DNA of 64,000 nt, taken from positions 1-64,000 of the forward strand of contig JASUSV010000002.1 of assembly GCA_030445865.1 (NCBI GenBank), read 5' to 3'. Position 1 is the first letter of the stretch; each line of letters opens with the position of its first letter. The notes beneath the pieces are model-generated. The model was not told the DNA's origin. It saw only the letters and a program-made list of their open reading frames with translations, and searched no databases. Both the position numbers and the translations under genes were made by a program. This DNA is from Clostridia bacterium. Lineage in GTDB: Bacteria > Bacillota > DSM-521 > Neomoorellales > Neomoorellaceae. Below, piece after piece: positions 1-53,229 of the stretch.

Positions 1-181
1 CGTTGGCGAGACCGAGCCCGGAGGCGGGGCCGAGGGCATGGAGGCCCGAGGCCGGCCACTGAGGCAGGATGCCGAATTGGCCGGGAACCCCGCCGAAGGC
101 GAGGGGGAGCCTACGGATCGCTGGCGAGCCCATCAGGAGCCGGCGCCAGCGCCCCGGCACGGGGAATGTTTCGGATGCATC
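1..181 (+). repeat. 255-bp structured repeat element, copy 1 (3' part)
   Basis: The window opens inside a repeat that recurs in full at 14070-14324 and 52968-53222. About the last 180 bp are present and match those copies almost throughout, ending in a right terminus (169-181) of the form TTTCGGATGCATC. It is GC-rich and full of short hairpins, for example CGCC-GAA-GGCG. The thioredoxin ribosome site follows 10 bp after the end. No protein is likely: a reading frame runs through it into trxA but is not kept in the other copies. The left end and its flanking repeat lie outside the window. Confidence 0.85.
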
Positions 182-13532: not shown

Positions 13533-13549
13533 TCAACAGGGTGAATGTG

Positions 13550-14068
13550 GTGAAAATTGGCGTTGCTGAACTTAAGAAAGCTCCAGGAAGCCAAGTGGAA
13601 TATAAATGGGAAGAAAAATGGCCACCGCTTTCCTTTGAAGGCCAGGAGATACCGTTTGCTGGCCCCGTGATCGTCAAGGTGGTAGTAACCAATACCGGCA
13701 ATACTTTTTTAGTTAACGGGAAAGTGAATGCGGACCTCAACTTGTATTGCAGTCGTTGCCTGGAAAGTTTTATCTACCACTTGGAGCTACCGTTTGAAGA
13801 GCAATACTGCAGTGCCGACTTCTGGCAGGCCCTGCCCGAGGATCTGGAGCTTAAAGACGAAATTCGGGTATTTACGGGCGATACTATAGATCTTTCCCCT
13901 GCCGTTAGAGAAGCCTTGCTTTTAGCCCTACCTATGAAGCCCCTTTGCCGCGAGAGCTGCCAGGGGCTTTGTCCGGGGTGCGGTAAAGATCTTAACCGGG
14001 GTAACTGCGAATGCCACCGCGAAGATGGCGATCCGCGTTTGGCCGCCCTAGCAAAGTTGCTAAGCTGA
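13550..14068 (+). CDS. yceD: YceD/DUF177 family protein
   Basis: A roughly 172-aa protein of the DUF177 family, whose gene is commonly paired with rpmF; the bacterial homologue is linked to 23S rRNA accumulation. The family cysteines are present: CSRCLESF near residue 66 and CQGLCPGCG with CECH near the C-terminus, probably a zinc site. GTG codons at 13541, 13547 and 13550 are in frame; 13550 was chosen for spacing from AGGGTG. The stop codon lies within the 8-bp direct repeat that flanks the inserted 255-bp element. Confidence 0.9.
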   Translation: MKIGVAELKKAPGSQVEYKWEEKWPPLSFEGQEIPFAGPVIVKVVVTNTGNTFLVNGKVNADLNLYCSRCLESFIYHLELPFEEQYCSADFWQALPEDLELKDEIRVFTGDTIDLSPAVREALLLALPMKPLCRESCQGLCPGCGKDLNRGNCECHREDGDPRLAALAKLLS

Positions 14069-14332
14069 GGGTGCTTCCGAAAGAAGTATGAAAATGCCGG
14101 GGATGCTGGCGTAAGGCGACTTTGGGCGAGCCTTGTGAGCCGTTGGCGAGGCCGAGCCCGGAGGCGGGGCCGAGGGCATGGAGGCCCGAGGCCGGCCACT
14201 TAAGTCTGCGATGCCGAATTGGCCGGGAACCCCGCCGAAGGGCGAGGGGGAGCCTACGGATCGCTGGCGAGCCCATCTGGAGCCGTCGCCAGCGCCCCGG
14301 CACGGGGAATGTTTCGGAAGCATCAAGCTGAG
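14062..14332 (+). mobile_element. 255-bp structured element, copy 2, with 8-bp target duplication
   Basis: The element itself is 14070-14324. It begins GGTGCTTCCGAAA and ends TTTCGGAAGCATC, 13-bp terminal inverted repeats with one mismatch. An identical 8-mer AAGCTGAG flanks both sides (14062-14069 and 14325-14332). Deleting the element and one 8-mer joins the yceD stop codon to the rpmF ribosome site in a normal 20-bp operon gap. The inside pairs heavily: TGCCGGGG with CCCCGGCA, GCTGGCG with CGCCAGC, GGCC-CCC with GGG-GCC and CGCC-GAAG-GGCG. No transposase is encoded, so it looks like a MITE-type element or mobile structured RNA. Confidence 0.85.
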
Positions 14333-14349
14333 AAGAGGAGGTGGCAAAA

Positions 14350-14538
14350 ATGGGAGTACCGAAACGCAGAGTTTCTAAAGCCAGGAAAAATAAGCGCCGC
14401 TCCATTTGGGCTAAACTCGACGCCCCTTCTTTAGTGGAATGCCCGCACTGCCATGAATTGAAACTGGCCCACCGGGTTTGCGGCCATTGTGGTTACTATA
14501 AGGGAAGAGAAGCCGTGAAGGTAGCAGCGGAAGAGTAG
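14350..14538 (+). CDS. rpmF: Ribosomal protein bL32
   Basis: Large-subunit ribosomal protein, 62 aa. It has the family start [16 protein letters not shown] and a zinc-ribbon of CPHC (about residues 30-33) and CGHC (about 43-46). The ATG at 14350 follows GAGGAGGTGG; a GTG at 14341 lies inside this ribosome site and is not used. The mobile 255-bp element now separates it from yceD, so its transcription must pass through the element or start within it. A strong terminator follows. Confidence 0.96.
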
Positions 14539-52960: not shown

Positions 52961-53229
52961 TAATACGGGTGCATCCGAAAGAAGTATGAAAATGCCGGGG
53001 ATGCTGGCGTAAGGCGACTTTGGGCGAGTCTTAAGAGCCGTTGGCGAGACCGAGCCCGGAGGCAGGCGACGAGGGCATGGAGGAGGCCGGAAACTCGCGC
53101 AGGATGCTTAAATCCGGCCGGGAACCCCGCCTTAAGGCGCGAGGGGGAGCGATACGGATCGCAGACGAGTCCATCTGGAGCCGTCGCCAGCGCCCCGGTA
53201 CGGGGAATGTTTCGGAAGCATCTAATACG
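52961..53229 (+). mobile_element. 255-bp structured element, copy 3, with 7-bp target duplication
   Basis: The element is 52968-53222, exactly 255 bp as in copy 2. Left end GGTGCATCCGAAA, right end TTTCGGAAGCATC. TAATACG flanks both sides (52961-52967 and 53223-53229), a different sequence from the 8-mer at copy 2, so these are target duplications. Outer and first 100 bp are nearly identical to copy 2; the middle differs but keeps helices, for example CGCCTTAAGGCG in place of CGCC-GAAG-GGCG and GGCCGG/CCGGCC. It lies upstream of the aldehyde oxidoreductase gene in the same orientation as the other copies. Confidence 0.85.

Follow-up and report, generated by a model that had tools for sequence, protein, structure and literature searches.

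What is the sequence that separates yceD from rpmF in the window, that is, in the whole 64,000-nt stretch of DNA analyzed here, and what could it contribute to the genes next to which it resides? The first-pass annotation described a structured insertion with an 8-bp target duplication and 13-bp terminal inverted repeats, and this description holds: an exact AAGCTGAG is present on both sides, and of the 13 positions of the terminal repeats, GGTGCTTCCGAAA and TTTCGGAAGCATC, 12 are complementary. The relevant features, with the insertion denoted type A, are as follows.

1..181, + strand: truncated copy at the contig start, its right end preceding GAGGAGGG and a thioredoxin-like start
13541..14068, + strand: yceD, 5' of the element
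14062..14069, no strand: left target duplication, AAGCTGAG, by direct reading
14070..14324, + strand: non-autonomous transposable element, type A, 255 bp, bounds from the target duplications
14070..14082, + strand: left terminal inverted repeat, GGTGCTTCCGAAA, supported by the 65 genomic occurrences of its end motif, GRTGCWTCCGAAA
14312..14324, - strand: right terminal inverted repeat (TTTCGGAAGCATC on the + strand), supported by the genome count of the end motif
14325..14332, no strand: right target duplication, AAGCTGAG, by direct reading
14336..14341, + strand: rpmF Shine-Dalgarno sequence AGGAGG, 12 nt past the right end of the element
14350..14538, + strand: rpmF, 3' of the element
52968..53222, + strand: second full copy in the window, with the target duplication TAATACG at 52961-52967 and 53223-53229

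The stop codon of yceD (14066-14068) lies inside the left duplication. When the element and one 8-mer are removed on paper, the ribosome site is kept, as had been proposed, with AGGAGG intact, and the distance from the stop codon to the rpmF ATG (14350) is 18 nt rather than the claimed 20 bp. In all 23 relatives examined, the yceD-rpmF gap lacks the element, so that the insertion in the window is lineage-specific, in agreement with the proposed mobility; one of the 23 contains a single truncated core on the opposite side of yceD. The genome as a whole (2.08 Mb in 90 contigs) yielded at least 40 copies of the 255-bp element, with identities of 84-100%, and 65 exact matches to GRTGCWTCCGAAA compared to none for the reversed control. 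Most of the full copies are flanked by 7-8-bp duplications, and among the elements with both ends readable, these duplications are exact in 19 and vary in sequence from site to site. The contigs themselves (C3, C13, C23, C36, C40, C55, C90 and others) often end within element copies, so the actual copy number is probably higher. One copy (L072:2688-2996) harbors a nested short element with Moorella-type ends (TACCCTGAAAATAAC...).

Hairpin variants occur in mosaic combinations among the copies, suggestive of gene conversion, as would be expected of a stable, non-mobile family of structured RNA genes spread by recombination. We nevertheless give this explanation almost no credence because the exact duplications, which differ between sites, already contradict it, the ends are shared with a transposase-encoding element, and the orthologous site lacks the element in the 23 relatives. 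By its ends, duplications and copy number, the element is a miniature inverted-repeat transposable element (MITE): it is short and non-coding, with no reading frame common to the copies, as noted in the first-pass annotation, and has the same ends as a candidate autonomous element. That annotation offered a choice between a MITE with an unknown transposase and a mobile structured RNA. Both descriptions apply, given that the MITE carries a conserved RNA, but the transposase can no longer be called unknown, now that a candidate sharing these ends has been identified. At four places, we identified 97-bp versions that have these ends, too, and duplications of their own but no RNA core; what they lack is the segment that two GCTGGCG direct repeats delimit in the full form, and they are thus either deletion derivatives or the state that preceded the gain of the core.

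The candidate autonomous element, L128:2-1377, comes from a genome of the same order but a different family (G018) and encodes, on its minus strand, a 276-aa DDE protein (DDE_Tnp_IS240, PF13610; 35.1 bits, cut-off 27) and, in an overlapping open reading frame, a 109-aa zinc-ribbon protein. The transposase scores 51 bits against the NCBIfam IS6 model, the cut-off of which is 125, and no viral relative of it was found. Judging from the shared ends, it is the best candidate for the mobilizing enzyme and would act on the MITE in trans. The genome under study contains no full transposase of this kind, only a remnant (L082) that has the zinc-ribbon start and the right end in common with the candidate, and the sole intact autonomous copy, L128:2-1377, has no exact flanking duplication, in contrast to the MITE copies with their 8-bp duplications. 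Other candidates were rejected: the type A ends presumably resemble those of the ISL3 family, but neither ISL3 (PF01610) nor IS256 (PF00872) transposases were matched in this genome, the single IS4-type match is degenerate and frameshifted, and the right-end matches in G003 and G007 are fossil fragments without a transposase. A search for a phage or plasmid origin returned only an 82-bp core match (83%) in one Klebsiella plasmid record (NZ_CP061968.1, 19611-19690), possibly a contamination.

The sites of insertion are far from random. Past the right end of type A, positions +12 to +17 are enriched in guanine, and a Shine-Dalgarno-like string is present at +9 to +21 for 40 of the 46 right ends in the same genome and for all 19 in G018, compared to 11-14% for positions drawn at random from these loci. 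This motif is mostly followed by a start codon and an open frame. The orientation is fixed, with the right end directed toward the motif, about 12 nt away. The constant distance and the sense orientation would fit a cis-regulatory leader, whereby selection favored insertions ahead of Shine-Dalgarno sites that put the gene under the control of the RNA-binding regulator CsrA. CsrA commonly acts near such sites, for example, in the hag leader of Bacillus subtilis. We regard this explanation as improbable because the core-less 97-bp copies and the transposase-bearing elements are placed identically, right end before the Shine-Dalgarno site. Furthermore, the second full copy in the window adjoins a G-run (at 53223) with no start codon nearby, and in L014 and L021, the G-run after the right end is not the working Shine-Dalgarno sequence, which is located further on. 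Target recognition explains the placement without selection, and these observations point to sequence recognition by the transposition machinery rather than post-insertion selection. Such Shine-Dalgarno-adjacent insertion of type A appears to be new here; for a transposon, a preference for a constant spacing ahead of Shine-Dalgarno sites would be unusual, and an element of this kind would show how mobile DNA can become many regulatory leaders at once.

Inside the element, the + strand is predicted to fold into an elaborate structure, with the following parts.

14096..14111, + strand: 5' arm of the closing stem, GCCGGGGATGCTGGCG, from the fold
14138..14254, + strand: conserved RNA core, apparently TwoAYGGAY-related, with a three-way junction, two hairpins and tandem-GA loops
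14163..14236, + strand: three-way junction closed by GGCGGGG/CCCCGCC, from the fold and covariation
14174..14187, + strand: hairpin 1, GGGC(AUGGAG)GCCC, with an intact CsrA-type GGA loop
14200..14219, + strand: position of hairpin 2, degenerate in the window copy (UUAAGUCUGCGAUGCC), with the GGA lost
14287..14301, + strand: 3' arm of the closing stem, CGCCAGCGCCCCGGC, from the fold

The interior of the window element has a folding energy of -154.5 kcal/mol (z-score -6.1), with a long stem that is interrupted by symmetric GA/GA loops and leads to the three-way junction with the two hairpins. In an alignment of 23 diverse cores, 85% of the cells assigned to pairs are paired, 20 pairs changed on both sides, and there are 79 compensatory cells, a number that none of 500 shuffles reached, with slid structures yielding 7-30; covariation thus supports the fold. 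A model (R2) built from distant members alone, with the sequences of this genome left out, recognizes the window copy with 79.5 bits (E = 2e-20). In the loop and its closing pair, both hairpins conform to CA(N)GGANG in GC-rich and AT-richer genomes alike, whereas the stems vary (GGGC, GGAC, GCGC, GCAC and GGCC in hairpin 1, and several in hairpin 2). At least one GGA motif is retained in nearly all copies in the genome, by a count of hairpin status that misreads L009 and L022. At several sites (L122:1039-1377 and L123:120-544 in G018; L039 and L053 in Moorella-type genomes), a hairpin element, CCAGCACTCAAC...GTTGAGTGCTGG, replaces hairpin 1 or other stems of the RNA exactly, as if modules were swapped.

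Comparing the copies within this one genome, we found that most changes in base pairs disturb the pairing (97 to GU, 83 to AC, 91 other and 14 compensatory), so that single copies drift after insertion and might not be under selection; most likely, the RNA of a master element is conserved and the individual copies decay. In core alignments in which some outer pairs are poorly placed, AC exceeds GU (81:54 and 44:20), so that this comparison is uninformative with regard to a transcribed + strand, or even contrary to it. Neither a promoter nor a terminator was found inside the element. The c-di-GMP riboswitch was rejected as its identity (19-26 bits, with 40-48 needed); a c-di-GMP-I riboswitch (64.4 bits) is located near one element copy (L018:2612-2707).

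The core recurs in many relatives, with differing outer ends. Of the 22 genomes of the class, 16 possess the RNA, several of them in 34-56 copies, and we found it in 67 of the 399 sampled genomes of the phylum, from 48 genera. Among the carriers with names are Moorella mulderi, M. stamsii, M. sulfitireducens and Desulfofundulus australicus. The elements that contain this core in G005 are unrelated to the 8-bp type A: they terminate in CTGAGTTATCCCCA and TGGGGATACGCCAG and are flanked by duplications of 9 bp, such as ATTATTCAT, TACTGCCAC, GTCTAAGGA, GATAATAAT and GCGAAAGGG, so that the RNA is carried by at least two types of transposons. As far as rough gene calls indicate, the core can point either way relative to genes when it is not part of type A. 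At a site in front of a hemN-like gene, it is sense in L043 and antisense in L099, L100 and L158, by a flip or through independent insertions. Members of one genus (g91: L216, L217, L218 and L227, from G139, G104, G244 and G374) have just one copy of the RNA, richer in AT, which in L216 ends in a stem followed by T's, resembling a stand-alone small RNA with a terminator. This single-copy form could be the ancestral one.

This distribution bears on the possibility that the element is an ordinary MITE, the structure of which serves the element alone, for instance, by limiting harm to target genes or assisting transposition, with GGA loops that are a legacy of a captured RNA and no longer have a function. 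The drift of the copies, the transposition of the core-less 97-bp versions and the loss of one GGA loop from the window copy are all compatible with this explanation, which, in our view, has perhaps one chance in four. It does not readily account for the retention of the loops and the fold across 48 genera, in several vehicles and both orientations, or for the presence of the same RNA in at least two unrelated transposon types.

A link to CsrA is suggested by the loop motifs and by co-occurrence: csrA was detected in 15 of the 16 RNA-bearing genomes of the class compared to 2 of the 6 genomes lacking the RNA (Fisher p = 0.009), a small correlation confounded by kinship, which, along with genome reduction, may explain part of it; in G021, the RNA is present and csrA was not found. 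The genome under study encodes a fliW-csrA operon, and its CsrA retains LTRR and VRRE, which we take to be the RNA-binding segments by comparison with Escherichia coli CsrA. The element RNA probably binds CsrA, and the element may affect gene expression.

We somewhat favor, over the alternatives taken together, a scenario in which a distant IS6-like DDE transposase would move the MITE in trans, generating 8-bp duplications and leaving a spacing of about 12 nt between its right end and a G-rich target resembling a Shine-Dalgarno sequence. Given this distance, the element normally ends up, sense-oriented, within the 5' leader of a gene. Its cargo is a structured RNA of roughly 200 nt with two GGA-loop hairpins of the CsrA-binding type. 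Upon transcription of the leaders, the two GGA hairpins of an RNA would together bind a CsrA dimer, and the many copies scattered over the genome would jointly form a sink for CsrA; within a given leader, the element may recruit CsrA to the vicinity of the Shine-Dalgarno sequence. A mobile element may thus spread a regulatory RNA through these bacteria. The broader proposition, that Shine-Dalgarno-targeting transposons spread CsrA-binding leaders, rewiring dozens of genes together with the pool of free CsrA, and that the RNA was captured independently by several transposon families, is tentative, and we consider it somewhat unlikely.

Among known systems, the vehicle resembles IS6-family insertion sequences and their MITEs in the DDE_Tnp_IS240 match of the partner transposase, in ends starting with GG and in the 8-bp duplications of the MITE copies, but the partner scores well below the IS6 cut-off and has a separate zinc-ribbon frame, and type A has a different end sequence and a Shine-Dalgarno-adjacent target. 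With respect to the cargo, the repeat of CsrB is CAGGA(U/A/C)G and the consensus for RsmE is CANGGANG. The element loops match both; unlike the CsrA-sequestering RNAs of the CsrB/RsmZ type, the element has two putative sites per RNA rather than many, and its copies are dispersed in mRNA leaders. IStrons, in which a group I intron is combined with an insertion sequence (PMC4227781), similarly join a structured RNA to a DNA transposon, but the element shows no sign of a ribozyme or splicing.

The closest relative of the RNA itself is probably TwoAYGGAY (RF01731, clan CL00106). PMC2864571 lists this RNA from the human gut, Gammaproteobacteria and Clostridiales. According to PMC4333381, TwoAYGGAY was predicted in 2014 to bind CsrA, with its tandem GAs noted; Gammaproteobacteria were the only bacteria in which RNAs that sequester CsrA had been identified, and such RNAs were predicted for Clostridia through TwoAYGGAY. 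The first-pass annotation did not recognize the element from known families, which remains true of the window copy, for which there was no meaningful Rfam match, but not entirely of its distant members: three of these align with TwoAYGGAY over the full length and on the right strand, with 42.7 (in L216), 40.6 and 39.2 bits, all short of the gathering threshold of 43. Both RNAs have two hairpins with GGA-type terminal loops, here A(N)GGAN at the level of the family, with one such loop left in the window copy, and tandem-GA loops in the stem, here the symmetric GA/GA loops of the predicted folds. From these near-threshold scores, we infer that the RNA is a divergent, GC-rich, mobile branch of TwoAYGGAY, and a TwoAYGGAY-like RNA as high-copy transposon cargo appears to be new here. 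Because such a relative occurs in thermophiles that can be cultured, Moorella among them, the CsrA prediction for Clostridia becomes directly testable. The family described here differs from TwoAYGGAY in its sub-threshold scores, with the window copy undetected, and in its GC-richness, high copy number and mobility, the latter two not being reported for TwoAYGGAY in the passages that we consulted.
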